A stretch of 64,000 bases of DNA, from NCBI RefSeq assembly GCF_036924515.1, contig NZ_JAZHRR010000001.1, positions 5,055,001 through 5,119,000 on the forward strand, in the 5' to 3' direction. The notes beneath the pieces were generated by a model. The model did not search any database and was not told the origin of the DNA. It was given only the letters and a program-made list of their open reading frames with translations. This document shows, piece after piece, positions 53,511 to 61,890 of the stretch (positions within the stretch are counted from its first letter, which is position 1; each line of letters opens with the position of its first letter). The stretch is from Bradyrhizobium sp. AZCC 1610. Its GTDB lineage: Bacteria > Pseudomonadota > Alphaproteobacteria > Rhizobiales > Xanthobacteraceae. The position numbers and the translations under genes were made by a program.

Positions 53511-54872
53511 TCAGGTTTCGCGGAAACCGCGGGAGAAGCTGTCGAAGACCGGCCTCATAATGTACTCGAAAAACGTACGCTCTCCGGTCTTGATGTAGAC
53601 GTCGGCGGGCATCCCGGGCGTCGGGATGAATTCAGGCATGCGCCTGAGGATATCGTCCTGGTCCAGGCGCACCCGAACGACGTAGAATTCCCGACGCGTG
53701 TCACTGTCTGGGCGTGCTTCGTTCTTGGCCTGCATTTGCGCCGCCAAGGCGTCGGCCGACACGTAGATGACGCTCGCTCCGACCGTGGGCGTAATGCGCT
53801 GGTTCAGCGCCGACAGCCGCACCAGCGCTTCCTGGCCTACGCTCACGTGCGAAATGTCCTTGGGATTCATGTGTGCCTCGATGATGCGCTCTTCGCCTAT
53901 CGGCAGAAGCTCAAGGATCACGGCGCCAGGAGAGACGACGCCGCCCGGCGTATGGAAGTTCTTCTTCACCACGATGCCACGGACCGGCGAACGGACTTCG
54001 ACCCGGTCGACTACGTCTTGGGCGGCGCGAATCTGCTCCTCGACGTCGTCCAGATCCCCCTCGGTCTCGCGCAGCTCCTTGATCGCATCCCGCAGCGCCG
54101 TCGAGTGGAGTTGGGCTATCCTCTCGTTGGCCTGAGCGATCCGCTCCTTTGAATCGGCGATGCGACCGAGATACTCGCCGAGGTCTCCGCCGAGACTCGC
54201 CTCGGAGCGCCGCAGCGCCAGCACATCCGACTTGCGGACCAACTGCTGTCCAAGAAGCGAATTCTTGTCCTTCAGCTCTTCGGCGAACAGAGTAATACGA
54301 TCTTTGGTGGACTGCACTTGCGCCTGATATCCGCGAATGCTTTCCTCCAGCCCGGCGATTTGCTTGCCGAGCAGGCTTTCTTCGGTCGCGAGACTAACCC
54401 GGCGTGCCCGCAGCTCGGCACGTTGCCGCTCAAGAATCGCTTTGACTTCCGGATCACGTACGCTGCCGCTGAATGCTGCCGGAATTTCGATTGTCTCCAT
54501 AGAGTTCATTTCGGCTTCGAGACGCGCCTTCATGGCAATCAGTCGATACTTCTTTAGAACCAGCCGCCTCAGCTTGGCATTGACCGCGGTGTCGTCCATG
54601 CGAACGAGGATCTGGTTCGCCTCGACCACATCGCCGTCCCTGACCGCAATCTCGCGGATGATGCCGCCCTCGAAGTGCTGGATCAGCTTGTTCTGCCCGG
54701 TGGCCACGAACGTGCCCGAGGCAACGACCGCACTGTTCAGAGGAGCTACTCCGGCCCAAACACCGAAACAACCGAGCCCAACGACAAGAATGGCGAGGCC
54801 TGCGAAGATAGGCCATTTGGCGCTGAGCGGAACGCCGCGATGCCACTCGCCGATGTCCTTTTTCGCGCTCAT
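53511..54872 (-). CDS. Type I secretion membrane fusion protein (HlyD family)
   Basis: A 453-residue periplasmic adaptor. One N-terminal membrane helix (about 22-45), lipoyl half (QHFEGGIIREIAVRDGDVVE), a long coiled coil (about 100-290) and the C-terminal part with VRSPVRGIVVKKNFHTPGGVV and TPGMPADVYIKTGERT match HlyD/PrtE adaptors of type I secretion. It follows the ABC exporter gene by 23 bases. The outer-membrane TolC partner is not in the window. Confidence 0.9.
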   Translation of the reverse strand: MSAKKDIGEWHRGVPLSAKWPIFAGLAILVVGLGCFGVWAGVAPLNSAVVASGTFVATGQNKLIQHFEGGIIREIAVRDGDVVEANQILVRMDDTAVNAKLRRLVLKKYRLIAMKARLEAEMNSMETIEIPAAFSGSVRDPEVKAILERQRAELRARRVSLATEESLLGKQIAGLEESIRGYQAQVQSTKDRITLFAEELKDKNSLLGQQLVRKSDVLALRRSEASLGGDLGEYLGRIADSKERIAQANERIAQLHSTALRDAIKELRETEGDLDDVEEQIRAAQDVVDRVEVRSPVRGIVVKKNFHTPGGVVSPGAVILELLPIGEERIIEAHMNPKDISHVSVGQEALVRLSALNQRITPTVGASVIYVSADALAAQMQAKNEARPDSDTRREFYVVRVRLDQDDILRRMPEFIPTPGMPADVYIKTGERTFFEYIMRPVFDSFSRGFRET

Positions 54873-54895
54873 GCTGTCCTCCCGCGCTGGTTACC

Positions 54896-56710
54896 TCACG
54901 GGCCGGAGGATTCGATGCGTCGCGGCTGCTCCGGCTTGTCTCCGCCGGACGACCGAACCAGGCGATGCAGCACCTCGCTCGGAGATCCAAATGCTTCGGC
55001 GCGTCCGGCCCGCAGAATGAGCACTTTGTCCACGCTGTTCAGCAGCGCCGGGCGCAGGGTTACGACCACCGCGGTGACCCCGCGCTCCTTGGCGCGCTGC
55101 AGGGTCTCGGTCAGTGCCTGCTCGCCCGCCGCGTCGAGGTTCGAGTTCGGCTCGTCGAGCACGACAAGGCACGGATTACCGAAGAAAGCCCGCGCGAGCG
55201 CGATGCGCTGCTTCTGTCCTCCGGAGAGTGGGCCGCCGCCGCGGTCGAGCACGGTTTCGTATCCTTGCGCCAACTGACAGACCATGTCGTGGATGCCCGA
55301 GAACATCGCCGCCTCGTAGATACTCGCGTCGGGCAGATCGTCCCGCATGCGACAGATGTTCTGCTTGATAGTTCCGGGAAAAAGCTCGACCTCCTGGGGC
55401 AGGTAGCCGGTATATTCCCCGAACTGGCGGCGATCCCAGTTGCGCAGCTCCGTTCCCTCCAGCCTGACCTTGCCGGCGGTCGGCACCAAACAGCCCACCA
55501 GCATGCGCGCGAGCGTCGACTTGCCCGATCCTGACGGCCCGACAATGGCTAGAGACTCTCCGGGCGCGAGCTCAAGCGACACACTGTTGAGCACCGCCTC
55601 CTTCGAGCCGGGCGGCAGGTACAAGACCCGATCCACGGTCAGGCGCCCTTGCGGTTTGGGCAGGCGCAGCTTCGGCGTCTCGCGCTGGAATGACTCGACC
55701 GCCTCCTTGACCCGCGCATAGGCCGATCGCGCCTGAACGCAACTGCGCCATCCCTCGATCAAGCCCTCGAGCGGCTGCAGGGCGCGGCTGGCAATGATCG
55801 CGGCAGCGATCATCATGCCGCCGGTGATCTCGGCTTGAAGGGCCAAATAGGCGCCCGTGCCGAGGATCGCAATCTGGGCCACGAGCCGGACGAACTTCGA
55901 CGCACCGCTGATCCAGAAGTTCCGGTCGAGGGCCTGGCTTTGCACCGTCAGGGCCGGTGCCTGCCGGCGACCCCAATGGAGAATGCTCTCGCTCAGCATT
56001 CCCATTGCATTGATCACCTGCGAATTTCGCGCCAGCGACTCGGCCGCCGCATCGGCCTCGGCGGCATGCAGGCCTGCCTGGCCCAAGCGCTCGGAGGTCG
56101 CTTTCTGGTTGATCAACGCAATCAGCGCCAGGGCCAGGCCCGACACGACGGCGATGTAACCGAGATCTCGGTGAACGAGGAATATGACTCCGAAGTAAAG
56201 CGGCGAGAGCGGCGCGTCCATCAGCAGAAGCACGACGGGGCTCGAGAGGAATCCGCGCACCTGGTGAAGGCTGCGGATCGCCTGGATGGTCCCACCCTCG
56301 CCGGCCCTGGCGTTGTTGATGCTGCTCGCCAGCACCGGGCCGCCGAGCAGGACCTCCATCTTGGTCGCAAGACGCCCCAGTACCTGGCGACGCAGAATGT
56401 CGACGATCGAGAGAATGCCGATGAACCCCAGCGCCAGAGCCGAGAGCATCAGCAGCGTTTCGAGGCTGCGGCTCGCCAGCACGCGGTCGGATAACTGGAA
56501 CAGGTACAACGGCATCGTGAGCATCAGCAGGTTCACGACGACCGAAAATGCTACGACCGCGATCAGGTTCGTGCGCGCGACCGAACGCCAGGCGGCCAGC
56601 GGGTTGACAGGTCCAACGTGATCGGCGCGGGCCTCCGTAGCGGGCGGAACGCGAAGCTGATCCGCAGAAGGGTCGTGCGGCGGAATGCTTACTGGTTCGA
56701 CTGCCGCCAT
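54896..56710 (-). CDS. Type I secretion ABC exporter (PrtD-like permease/ATPase)
   Basis: A 604-residue fused permease-ATPase. Five or six membrane helices lie between about 45 and 330; Walker A GPSGSGKST, signature LSGGQKQRIALARA and Walker B LVVLDEPNSNLD are in the C-terminal half. There is no N-terminal C39-like domain, which places it with PrtD/HasD-type exporters. It is 12 bases after the repeat-protein gene, so the cargo is probably encoded immediately upstream. Confidence 0.92.
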   Translation of the reverse strand: MAAVEPVSIPPHDPSADQLRVPPATEARADHVGPVNPLAAWRSVARTNLIAVVAFSVVVNLLMLTMPLYLFQLSDRVLASRSLETLLMLSALALGFIGILSIVDILRRQVLGRLATKMEVLLGGPVLASSINNARAGEGGTIQAIRSLHQVRGFLSSPVVLLLMDAPLSPLYFGVIFLVHRDLGYIAVVSGLALALIALINQKATSERLGQAGLHAAEADAAAESLARNSQVINAMGMLSESILHWGRRQAPALTVQSQALDRNFWISGASKFVRLVAQIAILGTGAYLALQAEITGGMMIAAAIIASRALQPLEGLIEGWRSCVQARSAYARVKEAVESFQRETPKLRLPKPQGRLTVDRVLYLPPGSKEAVLNSVSLELAPGESLAIVGPSGSGKSTLARMLVGCLVPTAGKVRLEGTELRNWDRRQFGEYTGYLPQEVELFPGTIKQNICRMRDDLPDASIYEAAMFSGIHDMVCQLAQGYETVLDRGGGPLSGGQKQRIALARAFFGNPCLVVLDEPNSNLDAAGEQALTETLQRAKERGVTAVVVTLRPALLNSVDKVLILRAGRAEAFGSPSEVLHRLVRSSGGDKPEQPRRIESSGP

Positions 56711-56722
56711 CTTCGCCCCCCG

Positions 56723-58795
56723 CTATAGGATGGCATTTCCAAGGTGATCGACTGGATGAGTTGTATCCACGACGTCGGGAGGCGGTGGTGCGTGCTTCTG
56801 GTCGGCAACCGCCGGCTCCGAAGTGTCGTGAGCCGACGCGGCATCGGTCGGAGACACGTCATCCTGCGGGGGAACGACGATGTCGCTGCTCAGCGTGACG
56901 CCGTAGTCGGTGTACTGGTTTCCGGTGTACAGAGCATTTGCTGGAGGCGGTGGCGCGTCGTCCAAGGCGATCACGTCGCCTGCGACGGGGGCTGGATCGA
57001 CAGCGTCATTCGATACCTCCGTTACAACGTTGGCCGGCGCAGCGGTCGCGGATGCCGGAACCTCGATCGGTGCGTCAGCCGCGGTGGCGAGCGCGAGAAG
57101 GGTATCGGCTGGGTCGGAGGCTTGACTACCGCTGCTGGTATCCGGCGCTGTCGAATCTGATGCGTCGGTAGTCGGATCGCTCGGCGCGGCAGCGGTTGTG
57201 GCGAGCACCGGCTCGATCGTATCAACGGCCGGCGCCACACTCGCAAGAGCATCGCTCACCACATTGCCGGTGTCGGCCGGATCTGGCGCGTCGGTCGTCG
57301 GATGGCTCGGAGCGGCGGCGGTTGGGGTGAGCACCGGCCCGATCACATCAACGACCGGTGCCGCACTTGCAAGAGCATCGCTCGCCACATTGCCGGTGTC
57401 GGCCACCGGCCCCGCAGTCGCGGTGGCGTCATTCGTCAAGCTGCCAAGCGTGTCCACGCTGTCGGTCGCGGTCGTGAGCACCGGCTGCGCCGCCGCCACG
57501 ACCGGCGCCGCCACGTCGACCACGTCATCGACCAGCGTCCCCGCGCTGTCGGTCGCGGTCGCGAGCACCGGCTGCGCCGCCGCCACGACCGGCGCCGCCA
57601 CGTCGAGCACGTCATCGACCAGCGTGCCCGCGGTGTCGGTCACGGTCGTGAGCACCGGCTGCGCCGCCGCCACGACCGGCGCTGCCACGTCGACCACGTC
57701 ATGGACCAGCGTCCCCGCGCTGTCGGTCGCGGTCGCGAGCACTGGCTGCGCCGCCGCCACGACCGGCGCCGCCACGTCGACCACGTCATGGACCAGCGTG
57801 CCCGCGTTGTCGGTCACGGTCGCGAGCACTGGCTGCGCCGCCGCCACGACCGGCGCTGCCACGTCGACCACGTCATGGACCAGCGCGCCCGCGGTGTCGG
57901 TCACGGTCGCGAGGACCGGCTCCGCCGCCGCCACGACCGGCGCTGCCACGTCGACCACGTCATCGACCAGCGCGCCCGCGGTGTCGGTCACGGTCGCGAG
58001 GACCGGCTCCGCCGCCGCCACGACCGGCGCTGCCACGTCGACCACGTCATTCACCAGCGGACCCACGCTGTCGGTCACGGGCGCGAGGACCGGCTCCGCC
58101 GGCGCCAAGGCTGGCGCAATCGTGCCGACCAAGTCATTGCTCAGATTGCCGACGCCTCCAAGTAGGCCGGCGGAGCCAATGATCGACGGATCAAAGGAGT
58201 CGCCAGGTACATTGGACTGAACGGGCCCGAGCGTTGACCCACCCGTCGGTTGACCGCTTCCGACACGGGAATCCGCTGACAGCAAGTTGACGGAATTATC
58301 GTCGATTGAGGCGTGAGTGTCATGATGACGGGAATCGGCATCATCGCCGCCTCCGCCTCCGCCTCCGCCGCCCCCGCCTCCACCCCCAGCGGCGGCGACA
58401 GCTTCTTCGCTGCGGGCGGCACTCGGCTTGGCCGCGTCTTTCTGCGGCTGCGTCAGAAACTCGGTCGGATCGAGCTGGACCGCATGCGCCTCCGACGACG
58501 CGGCGGGCTCCTCGGCCGTCTCATCCTCTGTGCTCGTTTTCGAGGGATCATGAGCCGGCGAATCGTCATTCGCAGCCTGCTGCGCCGCGCCTGCCAGAGC
58601 GGCTTTCGCCTGCTCCTCGGCCGCCGCGGAATTGAACGTGGCGGCGAGAAACTCCTCGCCGGCAATCAGCGGGGCAATGAAGAACGGCCAGGTCAAGAAA
58701 CCAAAAGAGCCGGCTCGCTTGTTTGCACGCTGCGCTCCGGCTTCGAAGATCTTCTGCTCTTGTTCGAACAGTTCGCGTTTTTCTACTTCGCTCAT
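56723..58795 (-). CDS. Repeat-rich protein, probable type I secretion cargo
   Basis: A 690-residue acidic, Ala/Val/Asp/Thr-rich protein. The N-terminal 60 residues (MSEVEKRELFEQEQKIFEAG, then GSFGFLTWPFFIAPL) are followed by a low-complexity acidic region and a run of 14 glycines near residue 145. Seven tandem units of 29 residues follow (about 237-440; consensus PVLATVTDTAGTLVDDVVDV then AAPVVAAAQ), then two longer imperfect repeats starting DTGNV(A/V)SDALAS. No signal peptide and no RTX nonapeptides. Position directly upstream of the exporter suggests a secreted adhesin or matrix protein; that is inference. Confidence 0.75.
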   Translation of the reverse strand: MSEVEKRELFEQEQKIFEAGAQRANKRAGSFGFLTWPFFIAPLIAGEEFLAATFNSAAAEEQAKAALAGAAQQAANDDSPAHDPSKTSTEDETAEEPAASSEAHAVQLDPTEFLTQPQKDAAKPSAARSEEAVAAAGGGGGGGGGGGGGGDDADSRHHDTHASIDDNSVNLLSADSRVGSGQPTGGSTLGPVQSNVPGDSFDPSIIGSAGLLGGVGNLSNDLVGTIAPALAPAEPVLAPVTDSVGPLVNDVVDVAAPVVAAAEPVLATVTDTAGALVDDVVDVAAPVVAAAEPVLATVTDTAGALVHDVVDVAAPVVAAAQPVLATVTDNAGTLVHDVVDVAAPVVAAAQPVLATATDSAGTLVHDVVDVAAPVVAAAQPVLTTVTDTAGTLVDDVLDVAAPVVAAAQPVLATATDSAGTLVDDVVDVAAPVVAAAQPVLTTATDSVDTLGSLTNDATATAGPVADTGNVASDALASAAPVVDVIGPVLTPTAAAPSHPTTDAPDPADTGNVVSDALASVAPAVDTIEPVLATTAAAPSDPTTDASDSTAPDTSSGSQASDPADTLLALATAADAPIEVPASATAAPANVVTEVSNDAVDPAPVAGDVIALDDAPPPPANALYTGNQYTDYGVTLSSDIVVPPQDDVSPTDAASAHDTSEPAVADQKHAPPPPDVVDTTHPVDHLGNAIL
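57476..58084 (-). repeat. Tandem repeat array, 7 x 87 bp
   Basis: Seven consecutive units of exactly 87 bases (starts at 57476, 57563, 57650, 57737, 57824, 57911 and 57998 on the plus strand), each coding for 29 residues on the minus strand. Units are highly similar, with variation concentrated at a few codons (Asp/His, Ala/Thr, Glu/Gln). Partial units flank the array. Direct repeats of this regularity are prone to copy-number change. Confidence 0.9.
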
Positions 58796-58836
58796 GACCG
58801 TCGCCCTTCATCTCGTTATCTCGCCCCACTCACAAA

Positions 58837-58865
58837 CTCGCCCGGCGAATTTACTGCCGGGCGAG
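58837..58865 (-). terminator. Hairpin between the two repeat-protein genes
   Basis: CTCGCCCGGC (58837-58846) pairs perfectly with GCCGGGCGAG (58856-58865), loop of nine bases. Read on the minus strand it follows the stop of the upstream gene and is followed by TTTGTGAG. With the weak T run it may be a partial terminator or an attenuator that lowers expression of the downstream genes. Confidence 0.55.
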
Positions 58866-58877
58866 CCTTTTCGGACA

Positions 58878-59747
58878 TCAGGCGTGATTCACTCCTTCGT
58901 GCAACGTCACGTCGTCTTGCCCTATGTCGAACTGATCCGCCGGGCCCATCTGGCCGATGGCGTAATCCAGCGCATGGTCGGACGACATCGAAGCGAGCGC
59001 GCCCTGGATGTCACCCGAATGATCCGGACCGCGCGAGCCGAAATCACCTCGGGAGAAGTCGAACCTTGCCAGCATTTCACCCGGGCTATGATTGGTGTCT
59101 GCACTGCCCTTGCCACAGTCGTCTGACGGCCTGGGGGCGCAATAGTCCTTCTGCGGTTGGCAGTCCTTCGGTGGGCAATAGTCCTTCGGCGGCTCGCAGT
59201 AGTCCTTGTGCGGTCGGCAATCGTCGTTCTTGGCGTCCTTCCAACCACCGTCGTGCTTGCCGTGGTCGCCCTTGCCATCCTTCGAGTAGTCGTCCTTGCC
59301 GTGCTTCGAATGGCCGTCCTTGTGGCCGTCATCGGAGCAGTCATCGTTCTTGGCGTGCTTCGAATAACCGTCCTTGTCGCCATGCTTGGAATCACCGTCC
59401 TTGTCGCCGTCCTTCCAGTGGTCCCGACCCTTGTGATCGTCGTCGTTCTTGCCGTGCTTATCATCCTTGCCGTGCTTCGAATGGCCGTCCTTGTCGCCGT
59501 CCTTCCAGTGATCGCGATCCTTGTGATCGTGGTCATTCTTGGCGTGCTTCGAGTAATCATCCTTGCCGTGCTTGGAATAATCGTCCTTGTCGCCATTCTT
59601 CCAGTGGTCACGACCCTTGTGATCGTCATTCCACTTGGACTCCTTGCCGTCGCCGCAGTCGTCGGGCCTGGCTGGCTTGCAGTCCTCGCGTGGCATTGGA
59701 ATCGGCTTCGGGTGGAAAAAGCTCGTAACGTTGTTCAGGATTGACAT
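58878..59747 (-). CDS. Asp/Lys/His/Gly-rich low-complexity protein, possible secreted matrix or metal-binding protein
   Basis: A 289-residue hydrophilic protein. About residues 35-165 are built from a few short words: three copies of RDHWK(N/D)GDKD spaced by 30-32 residues and six copies of SKH(G/A). Residues about 165-205 are Cys/Pro-rich (DYCEPPKDYCPPKDC), and the protein has nine cysteines. The last 80 residues are of normal complexity (GEMLARFDFSRGDFGSRGPD). No signal peptide. GAGGAG lies before the ATG. Abundant His and Asp would allow metal binding. It is first in the operon after the sigma gene. Not recognised. Confidence 0.7.
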   Translation of the reverse strand: MSILNNVTSFFHPKPIPMPREDCKPARPDDCGDGKESKWNDDHKGRDHWKNGDKDDYSKHGKDDYSKHAKNDHDHKDRDHWKDGDKDGHSKHGKDDKHGKNDDDHKGRDHWKDGDKDGDSKHGDKDGYSKHAKNDDCSDDGHKDGHSKHGKDDYSKDGKGDHGKHDGGWKDAKNDDCRPHKDYCEPPKDYCPPKDCQPQKDYCAPRPSDDCGKGSADTNHSPGEMLARFDFSRGDFGSRGPDHSGDIQGALASMSSDHALDYAIGQMGPADQFDIGQDDVTLHEGVNHA

Positions 59748-59873
59748 GGCTTCGCTCCTCGCTTCGGGTTTGCGACGGTCGCGGGCACATGCCTTGTCCG
59801 GATCATCACGCCGTCACCCTTAACTGTCGCCGACGCTCCCCGATGGATGCAGCGGCGAAAAATAAATTCACAC

Positions 59874-60494
59874 TCATTCGATCTGCCGGCGCATGGCCAC
59901 GAGTTCTCTCCGGATCCACGCCTTGACGGTTCCCACCGGTACCCCGAGGTATTCGGCGATCTCCTGGTGCGTGCAGCCGTCGATGATCGCCAACAGCAGG
60001 CTCGCGCGGTGCCTTGGCTCGAGCTGATCGAGCATGGCCCGTAGCGTCATGCTGTCCGGGATGCAGGACGCGGGGTCCTCCGGGACGGTCTGTTTCCGCT
60101 CGCAGATGGCGTTCAGCGTGTCTTCGCCGAGCGCGAGTTCGCGCCTGGCATTCTCCCGCATCTTGAGCGCCGTGTTGCGGACGATCGCGTAGATCCAGCA
60201 TCGGGCGGATCCGCGTGCAGGATCGAAGTCTCTTGCATCTCGGAGAATCTGCGCGAATGCCTCATGGATGACGTCCTCCGCGCGTGACATGTCGTGGACG
60301 ATGCGGTGTGCCATCGCGCGCAACTGGTCCTTCTCCCGGGCGTAGATTTTGCCGACGGCAGACTGCGATCCGGAGGCGCACTCGAGCAGCGCCGTCTCGT
60401 AGTTGAGAGTCTCGCAATTGAGATATGTATTGAGATCCCGCGCTGCGCTGGAGTGAGACTCTGCCGTTGTAAAGCCGGCGCCTGGGTGGGGCAT
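59874..60494 (-). CDS. ECF-type RNA polymerase sigma factor
   Basis: A 206-residue sigma-70 family protein from ATG 60494 (a TTG at 60527 is an alternative). Region 2 reads AHRIVHDMSRAEDVIHEAF and FDPARGSARCWIYAIVRNTA; region 4 reads LEPRHRASLLLAIIDGCTHQ and EIAEYLGVPVGTVKAWIRR. No anti-sigma gene is adjacent, unusual for ECF factors. It lies 126 bases upstream of the Asp/Lys/His/Gly-rich gene, in the same direction, and could drive the secretion locus. Confidence 0.88.
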   Translation of the reverse strand: MPHPGAGFTTAESHSSAARDLNTYLNCETLNYETALLECASGSQSAVGKIYAREKDQLRAMAHRIVHDMSRAEDVIHEAFAQILRDARDFDPARGSARCWIYAIVRNTALKMRENARRELALGEDTLNAICERKQTVPEDPASCIPDSMTLRAMLDQLEPRHRASLLLAIIDGCTHQEIAEYLGVPVGTVKAWIRRELVAMRRQIE

Positions 60495-60563
60495 GGTCGA
60501 ACTCACCCTGTCGTAACGCACACGCAACCACTATTCCCGGAGAAGGAATATTTGTGATGAACT

Positions 60564-60580
60564 GCATTTCCAAGAAATGC
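60564..60580. promoter_or_regulatory. Palindrome 1 upstream of the sigma factor gene
   Basis: GCATTTCCAAGAAATGC, a perfect inverted repeat with 7-base arms and a CAA centre, about 70 bases before the sigma-factor ATG. It is nearly the same as palindrome 2, whose centre is 41 bases away. Confidence 0.65.
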
Positions 60581-60603
60581 CGATGGTGGTGGTGATGACG
60601 ACC

Positions 60604-60622
60604 TGCATTTCCTAGAAATGCA
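60604..60622. promoter_or_regulatory. Palindrome 2 upstream of the sigma factor gene
   Basis: TGCATTTCCTAGAAATGCA, a perfect inverted repeat with 8-base arms and a CTA centre. The 41-base centre-to-centre distance from palindrome 1 is close to four helical turns, so two dimers could bind the same DNA face. Confidence 0.65.
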
Positions 60623-61001: not shown

Positions 61002-61890
61002 GTGGGGTTGGCGCTGATGATAGCCACCACTGGAAGACTAGCAGCCAAGTTTAAACTAAGGGTGTTAGACCCGGCTCAGCTCGTCGTAGAAAAAATGCCG
61101 GCGAGTCGATACCGCTTCAATCGACAAAATGCGCGCTCTGCTGGCGTGTGGGGGCGGCGTAGCCGATACCGCCACGAAGAGCTAGTGATCGCGATCACCG
61201 AGATCGGCGGCTCCGTGATCCAGAGCCGCGGCGTCGTCGACAATGCCGATACATCGGCACTGCTGGTCTTCAACCCGTCCGGACCTCATGCGGGATGGAT
61301 GGGCGCAAGCTGCCACTGGCGCTACCGGTCGCTTTACCTCGAACAGAGCGCGCTCGACGATCTCTCGCGCACTCGGCACCGATCGTATTCCCTACTTCAC
61401 CCGCAATTGGATTGCCGATCCCGAACTGGCCAGCAATCTGCATGCGCTGCATCGCGCGCTCGACGGCGAACATGATCCGCTGCTGCAGCGCGAATTGATG
61501 GTCACGAGCTTCGGAGCACTGTTCAGGCGTCACGGCAGCGGCGGGCTGCGCGTCGAGCCCGTGCCGCGCGACCGCGTGCGCGTCGAAAGGGCGATCGAGT
61601 ACATCCGAGCGCGATTGGCGATGCCGATTTCCCTGGCGGACCTGAGCGACACGCTCGATCTCACGCAATTTCAGGTCATCAGGCTGTTCAAGCGCACGAT
61701 CGGCATGACACCGCATGCCTATGTCCTGCAACTGCGGCTCGACGCCGCCCGGCGCTATCTCGCGACGGGATCGCCGATTGGCGATGCCGCGGTCGCCGCC
61801 GGGCTCTACGATCAGAGCTCGCTGACGCATCACTTCAAGCGAAGCTACGGGCTCACCCCGCTGCAGTTCGCTCAGGCTACACGAGCCTGA
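61002..61890 (+). pseudogene. AraC-family regulator, frameshifted
   Basis: The first frame gives HEELVIAITEIGGSVIQSRG, ALLVFNPSGPHAGWMGASCH and WRYRSLYLEQSALDDLSR, an AraC-type cupin sensor domain. Around 61353-61375 the match moves to another frame with ALGTDRIPYFTRNWIADPEL and continues to a complete double helix-turn-helix (ISLADLSDTLDLTQFQVIRL; IGDAAVAAGLYDQSSLTHHF). One base change would give a full gene of about 290 residues. The start (GTG 61002 or ATG 61017) is uncertain. Pseudogene or sequencing error. Confidence 0.72.

Follow-up and report, generated by a model that had tools for sequence, protein, structure and literature searches.

In the genome of Bradyrhizobium sp. AZCC 1610, a single contig of 7.75-Mb (megabases), five genes of a type I secretion locus lie together in the stretch analysed here, a window of 64,000 nucleotides (G000:C1:5055001-5119000). 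All five open reading frames (ORFs) are on the minus strand, in the order extracytoplasmic function (ECF) sigma factor, Asp/Lys/His/Gly-rich protein of 289 amino acids (aa), repeat protein of 690 aa, ATP-binding cassette (ABC) exporter and HlyD-family adaptor (Table 1). The gaps between successive genes from the sigma factor to HlyD are 126, 82, 12 and 23 bases, such that the position, the common strand and the close spacing reported in an earlier, sequence-only reading of this DNA agree with the ORF coordinates.

Table 1. Features of the type I export operon and of its upstream region; positions are those of the window.
Feature	Position	Strand	Basis
HlyD-family type I periplasmic adaptor, 453 aa	53511..54872	-	TIGR01843
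PrtD-type ABC exporter (permease/ATPase), 604 aa	54896..56710	-	TIGR01842
690-aa repeat protein	56723..58795	-	repeat array, conserved ends, helix periodicity
289-aa Asp/Lys/His/Gly-rich protein	58878..59747	-	composition, conserved C-terminal region
ECF sigma factor, 206 aa from ATG 60494 (217 aa from TTG 60527)	59874..60494/60527	-	
17-bp palindrome GCATTTCTTGGAAATGC upstream of the sigma gene, candidate operator	60564..60580	-	pattern search
Second palindrome copy GCATTTCTAGGAAATGC	60605..60621	-	pattern search

Both transport components score above the NCBIfam cut-offs of their families, the exporter with 658.8 bits (TIGR01842, cut-off 510.15) and the adaptor with 379.6 bits (TIGR01843, cut-off 208.65). 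The sigma factor exceeds the cut-offs of Pfam Sigma70_r2 and Sigma70_r4_2 and of TIGR02937, with no region 3 match listed, and thus has the regions 2 and 4 without region 3 that characterize ECF factors. Its start is corrected to the ATG at 60494, which is conserved in relatives, unlike the upstream TTG at 60527. The coding status of the ORFs is supported by a G+C content at third codon positions of 0.74-0.81 and by differences to relatives that are biased toward codon position 3, the share being 0.44 and 0.48 for the N- and C-terminal ends of the 690-aa protein, 0.48 for the C-terminal end of the 289-aa protein, 0.57 for the sigma factor and 0.64 for HlyD; the sequences compared are related and so not independent, and the ABC gene is excluded, since C39-type exporters (see below) were mixed in. 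No anti-sigma domain is present by Pfam or NCBIfam in the other four operon genes, where the sequence-only reading had likewise seen none, or in a split AraC gene upstream; distant anti-sigma genes were not searched for. A TolC-family gene is not part of the operon either, and genes with PF02321 occur at three other places in the genome.

The five genes are a real, conserved set in Bradyrhizobium. Among 146 genomes of the genus, homologues of the 289-aa protein and of the sigma factor occur in an identical set of 19, the exporter is found at an identity of at least 90% in 18 of these (17 besides that of the window), and the N-terminus of the 690-like protein is present at all 19 loci. The exporter was missed in a broken assembly (G091), in which a contig begins inside the 690-like gene and the sigma gene is also interrupted. 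Thirteen further genomes contain, at the cut-off used, only a paralog of the exporter with 52-54% identity. The gene order is constant in all 15 loci whose fetched stretch covers the five genes, the other four ending at contig edges, and the adaptor is 86-90% identical in the 14 other loci whose fetched stretch includes it. The flanking DNA is mostly not shared among the 19 loci, so that the five genes have stayed together although their surroundings differ. Distances between the loci correlate with Spearman coefficients of 0.86 for ABC vs HlyD and 0.55 for sigma vs ABC (105 pairs each). Named relatives include exporters with 89-92% identity in B. hereditatis, B. canariense, B. vignae, B. valentinum and B. 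retamae, and homologues of the 289-aa protein in B. erythrophlei and Bradyrhizobium sp. B117. An exporter occurring without the repeat proteins, the observation that the sequence-only reading had named as contrary to its proposal, was not found, as all 18 exporter genomes have relatives of both the 289-aa and the 690-aa protein; co-occurrence and constant order thus support its view of the genes as one unit.

With 21% Asp, 13% Lys, 12% Gly and 9% His, the 289-aa protein is a polyampholyte; it has nine cysteines, and neither Pfam nor NCBIfam gives a match for it up to E = 1. Its gene contains an array of three copies of a 90-bp (base pair) unit with 80% matches, and because 16 other parsed copies of the protein have a length of 154-190 aa, and that of locus L051 of 193 aa, the copy of the window has an expanded repeat. 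In an alignment of 17 of these proteins the mean pairwise identity is 0.79 for residues 216-240 and 0.83 for residues 241-275, compared with 0.71 for the N-terminal 20 residues and 0.57-0.64, with many gaps, for the middle. The conserved C-terminal region (residues 216-275) is where a type I signal would lie, and the protein is a probable type I cargo and is probably disordered. The motif GGxGxD is absent from it, and the 690-aa protein has it twice, where its poly-Gly stretch ends; neither candidate cargo has the GGxGxDxUx nonapeptide arrays of repeats-in-toxin (RTX) proteins, as had been stated from the sequence.

The 690-aa protein is acidic (isoelectric point 4.05), Cys-free and rich in Ala, Val and Asp, and has no Pfam match and a single NCBIfam match with an E of 0.11, far under its cut-off. 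An N-terminal helix with a hydrophobic stretch (residues 1-50) is followed by a Gly-rich linker predicted to be disordered, by repeats of 29 residues (about residues 221-452) and by a C-terminal tail with a YTDYG motif. The repeats are encoded by 7.6 copies of an 87-bp unit with 93% matches (Tandem Repeats Finder score 1063), and their periodicity peaks at 99 degrees per residue, corresponding to eight helical turns per 29 residues, with a mean moment of 0.322 vs 0.144 +/- 0.016 in 300 shuffles. The 29-residue unit is an in-phase amphipathic helix. AlphaFold places helices at residues 3-74 and, with breaks, 234-459, with little order elsewhere, in a weak model (mean predicted local distance difference test score 52.9) that served for helix assignment only. 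The best-conserved part of the protein is formed by its N-terminal 50 residues (0.83-0.84, 19 loci), and the conservation of the C-terminus is 0.61-0.68 (15 loci, one ending in unknown bases). Residues 28-46 are hydrophobic (Kyte-Doolittle mean 1.39), which makes uncertain, for this protein, the earlier statement that the candidate cargos have no signal peptide. Apart from L052, which runs into unknown bases, the copies that end in a stop codon are 690 to 1548 aa long. Because of the conserved N-terminus and the Gly-rich linker a LapA-like adhesin was considered; no Pfam match points to LapA-like tethering, and an N-terminal retention module with a LapG site was not searched for by name. Precomputed Pfam labels on six of 44 homologues (four PF04513, one PF11172, one PF01442), as well as a PF04513 match of one distant second protein, which is under the cut-off, are read as look-alikes due to amphipathic helices, and three matches of the family to solved structures are at chance level (E 0.03-0.33). 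One homologue (P0135) is filed under a Mycobacterium metagenome bin, probably by a binning error.

Exporters with 62-75% identity are found in Hyphomicrobium and other Alphaproteobacteria, namely in four non-Bradyrhizobium genomes in a set of 397 from the order and in 21 of 103 genomes of one family. The distant set considered here comprises the 18 distinct loci of this class with enough upstream sequence, shorter ones being left out. Directly upstream of the exporter all 18 encode a protein with the 690-like N-terminal motif, and helical amphipathicity with z >= 3 is seen in 10 of the 15 of these second proteins that were tested. The regulators vary, with the sigma factor in two loci (L108, L109), a LuxR-type regulator in 14 and neither in two. 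Because it is present in only two of the 18, the ECF sigma factor is not a fixed part of the exporter family. Within the 103 genomes, a sigma factor with 57% identity adjoins the exporter in one (G563). In two others, relatives of the sigma factor (43%) occur in the absence of an exporter of the 62-75% class. Among the gene lists seen, a cargo rich in Asp, Lys and His (D/K/H) occurs only together with the sigma factor, in the 19 Bradyrhizobium loci, L108 and L109. A profile of the C-terminus of the Bradyrhizobium cargo, searched to an E of 0.05, gave weak matches in eight of the 18 distant loci (E 9e-05 to 0.03), of which that in L119 lies outside the expected ORF. In L108, a 95-aa ORF upstream of the sigma gene (L108:6170-6457) carries the cargo-like C-terminal motif once more.

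A further group of exporters with 51-57% identity comprises 55 loci, not all of them with upstream sequence, and shows no match to the sigma factor or to the ends of the 289-aa and 690-aa proteins. In all 15 listed loci with 52-55% exporters, an analogous pair is present at the corresponding place, consisting of a low-complexity protein (262-384 aa; 742 aa in L125) and a protein of about 650 aa. Since a second protein with the 690-like N-terminal motif lies upstream in 18 of 18 loci and the analogous pair in 15 of 15, this branch of exporters is accompanied by pairs of unusual proteins. A sister operon of this kind is found in the genome of the window itself (G000:C1:1432567-1439003; L179 6567-13003), with genes for a 262-aa Q/N/G-rich protein, a 644-aa repeat protein, a PrtD-type ABC exporter (52% identical) and HlyD; for the first two, Pfam and NCBIfam gave no match up to E 0.1. 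The sister operons, here and in other Hyphomicrobiales, thus resemble the operon of the window in that a PrtD-type exporter and an adaptor are preceded by a low-complexity protein and a protein of about 650 aa, but differ in their Q/N/G-rich cargo, in the GDYY..N..QTN..D repeats of the about 650-aa protein and in that no ECF sigma match lies near such exporters. Homology of the 690-aa and the about 650-aa families was not significant in a profile-profile comparison (probability 0.04), the single reported stretch being a YTDYG-like motif; neither was that of the two cargo families, and for the about 650-aa and the Q/N/G-rich families of the sister operon the probability was 5%. No solved structures match the about 650-aa family. 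A 698-aa protein of Hyphomicrobium (L122:7519-9615) matches both second-protein profiles (35 and 64 bits, in a search of two sequences), which is suggestive only of a possible link between the two operon types.

Upstream of the sigma gene, the two palindromes (Table 1) are the only occurrences of the pattern GCATTTCNNGGAAATGC in the whole genome, in which a control pattern is found 0 times. This suggests that they are a putative locus-specific control site. In five relatives (L052, L055, L056, L066, L068) the same place holds, instead of the palindromes, direct repeats about 24 bp long with the same GGAAATGC core (GGAAATGCAAGCC core).

With a probability of roughly 55%, we read this operon as dedicated to the type I export or display of two non-RTX, low-complexity surface proteins under an ECF sigma factor; export of either protein, attachment, the targets of the sigma factor and the matrix function are inferred from the sequence. 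In this scheme, the sigma factor would be made from its own upstream region, marked by the two palindromes, and would drive the whole run from the sigma gene through hlyD. The PrtD-type exporter would recognize the 289-aa protein via its conserved C-terminal region, and the protein would pass to the outside in an unfolded state via PrtD, HlyD and a TolC encoded elsewhere, with the 690-aa protein either exported alongside or held by its conserved N-terminal helix. The amphipathic helices of the latter would be exposed and could coat the surface or bind partners, and the two proteins together may form a hydrated, ion-binding coat or matrix. Several observations weigh against this proposal. The N-terminus of the 690-aa protein is better conserved than its C-terminus, unlike in a simple cargo with a C-terminal signal, and helical amphipathicity is not seen in five of the 15 tested distant second proteins (L112, L116, L193, L254, L122). 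Beyond Bradyrhizobium, the cargos are linked as putative homologues only by their position, their composition and a motif recognized by eye. In a promoter and terminator scan, sigma-70-like promoter signals and terminator signals stayed at chance level, and an ECF promoter was not demonstrated. Finally, the 289-aa protein has nine cysteines, and the RTX lipases and S-layer proteins described in PMC3034196 are without them. Of the exporter system for surface material proposed in the sequence-only reading, the conserved unit is upheld, while three of its parts are unproven: self-regulation, with no promoter shown and the sigma factor missing in 16 of the 18 distant loci; metal binding, which was proposed from composition; and the export of both proteins, given where the 690-aa protein is best conserved. 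The C39-type exporter and the peptide of the relatives (see below), the sister operon and the wider family in Hyphomicrobium and others had escaped that reading. The gene set had been regarded as undescribed, and no description of it was found in the searched, mostly non-subscription literature, which is not proof of novelty.

The operon is closest in its transport genes to the PrtD/PrtE-type systems, which also include HasDE, AprDE, PrsDE and RsaDE. Its ABC exporter and adaptor fall into the same families, the likely cargo genes adjoin the exporter and no TolC gene is included; it differs in that the likely cargos have neither RTX arrays nor a Pfam or NCBIfam family, and in that an ECF sigma factor is the first gene. 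RTX proteins secreted by type I systems (PMC3034196) resemble the 690-aa protein, which is acidic, repeat-rich and without Cys, and the 289-aa protein with its conserved C-terminal region. By contrast, calcium-binding nonapeptide arrays are absent from the two proteins, which have 29-residue helical and D/K/H polyampholyte repeats instead, in addition to the nine Cys of the 289-aa protein.

It is possible, if rather unlikely, that only the 289-aa protein is a type I cargo and that the 690-aa protein belongs to the envelope, into which its own N-terminal hydrophobic helix would insert it as a signal anchor or Sec signal, and serves as a tether or assembly partner of the exporter. This would fit the conservation of the N-terminus at all 19 Bradyrhizobium loci, where it is the best-conserved part, the presence of the motif, basic residues and an SFLTW-type hydrophobic stretch, in all 18 distant loci, and Ala-x-Ala-like ends after the stretch in several relatives, e.g. 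GGSAHAATA (read by eye). However, with a Kyte-Doolittle maximum of 1.39 in the protein of the window, this short stretch is of no more than moderate hydrophobicity, and the acidity and lack of Cys of the protein are also known from some type I cargos (PMC3034196). A regulatory role of one of the two proteins along the lines of FlgM is very improbable. FlgM is an anti-sigma factor that is removed by secretion, and the 289-aa or the 690-aa protein might act in an analogous manner, coupling sigma activity to export. The missing anti-sigma domain in the operon could be explained in this way, as could the restriction of the D/K/H-rich cargo, among the gene lists seen, to loci with the sigma factor, which the 289-aa protein always adjoins. 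Yet neither protein has a recognizable anti-sigma domain, and the association of sigma factor and cargo may reflect common ancestry, since the exporters of L108 and L109 are the closest of the distant ones (75%). Still harder to credit is an accidental neighbourhood, in which a PrtD system of the usual kind, serving an RTX substrate encoded elsewhere, happens to lie beside low-complexity ORFs. The anonymous, low-complexity nature of both candidate cargos would allow it, but it is contradicted by the co-occurrence of sigma factor and cargo, the constant order and the conserved ends in 19 loci and the second protein in 18 further loci, and by a gene set that is kept although the flanks mostly differ.

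The relatives of the operon bring in one more alternative. In 18 of the 19 genomes, all but that of the window, a divergent ABC exporter lies upstream of the sigma gene (at least 83% identity to the copy of L051, which carries a Peptidase_C39 domain) and is paired with a HlyD-like adaptor. Between this pair and the sigma gene, a peptide with a double-glycine-type leader was found in all 14 loci scanned, in 13 by pattern and in L058 by similarity, four loci being unscanned. Five such peptides, one of them from a distant locus, match the CTB bacteriocin model below its cut-off of 32 bits (14.7-21.4 bits), and more distant C39 relatives (64-65%) in three genomes also adjoin peptides of similar look (read by eye). 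In 17 of the 18 loci a cargo-like match lies at the end of the C39 gene (L051:6899-9394 and equivalents), and this fused D/K/H copy is truncated, ending before the conserved final block of the cargo in the eight tails read. In the genome of the window, no close C39 relative (best 30%) was found, nor a double-glycine peptide in the scanned region, such that the combination of a C39-peptidase ABC exporter and a double-glycine peptide seen in Cdz-like or CTB bacteriocin systems is absent from it. The Cdz system of Caulobacter, a contact-dependent inhibition system, resembles the C39 half of the relatives in that a small peptide lies beside its own type I exporter in a divergent arrangement, but the excerpts cited mention no PrtD half, large repeat proteins or sigma factor, and the window is without the peptide half (PMC5380434). 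Much as CdzC forms aggregates on the producer cells of Caulobacter, the operon could be one half of a surface-displayed, bacteriocin-like antagonism, in which the C39 exporter releases the double-glycine-type peptide, the 289-aa and 690-aa proteins hold or present it, and the peptide half has been lost from the genome of the window. We consider this doubtful. The frequency of the C39 pair, of the peptides (four of them giving 18-21 bits against the CTB model) and of the cargo-like match would agree with it; on the other hand, no immunity gene was identified, none having been searched for, the genome of the window retains the five genes without the peptide half, and the C39 query gave no close relative within the fetched flanks of L108-L122. 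Combining this with the export and display of the two surface proteins, the window might represent a reduced form of an undescribed two-exporter island, a PrtD-exported coat run by the ECF sigma factor, whose full form adds a C39-exported peptide held by the coat for contact-dependent action, the truncated cargo domain on the C39 exporter linking the two halves; such an island is improbable on present grounds.

The operon points to a whole family of type I export loci of this kind, spread over Bradyrhizobium, Hyphomicrobium and their relatives. Its likely cargos, in the members scanned, fall into no Pfam or NCBIfam family above cut-off. Its regulators are interchangeable (ECF sigma or LuxR-type), and its repeat passengers vary quickly between conserved ends. 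The family opens genetic tests of non-RTX type I export and of the role of the N-terminal helix of the second protein, and raises the question whether bacteria of soils and nodules use surface material and a bacteriocin-like peptide jointly. Upstream of the operon, on the plus strand, the gene of an AraC-type regulator (61002-61890) is split over two frames, with the ligand-binding part at 61002-61475 and the helix-turn-helix part at 61243-61890, and looks frameshifted.

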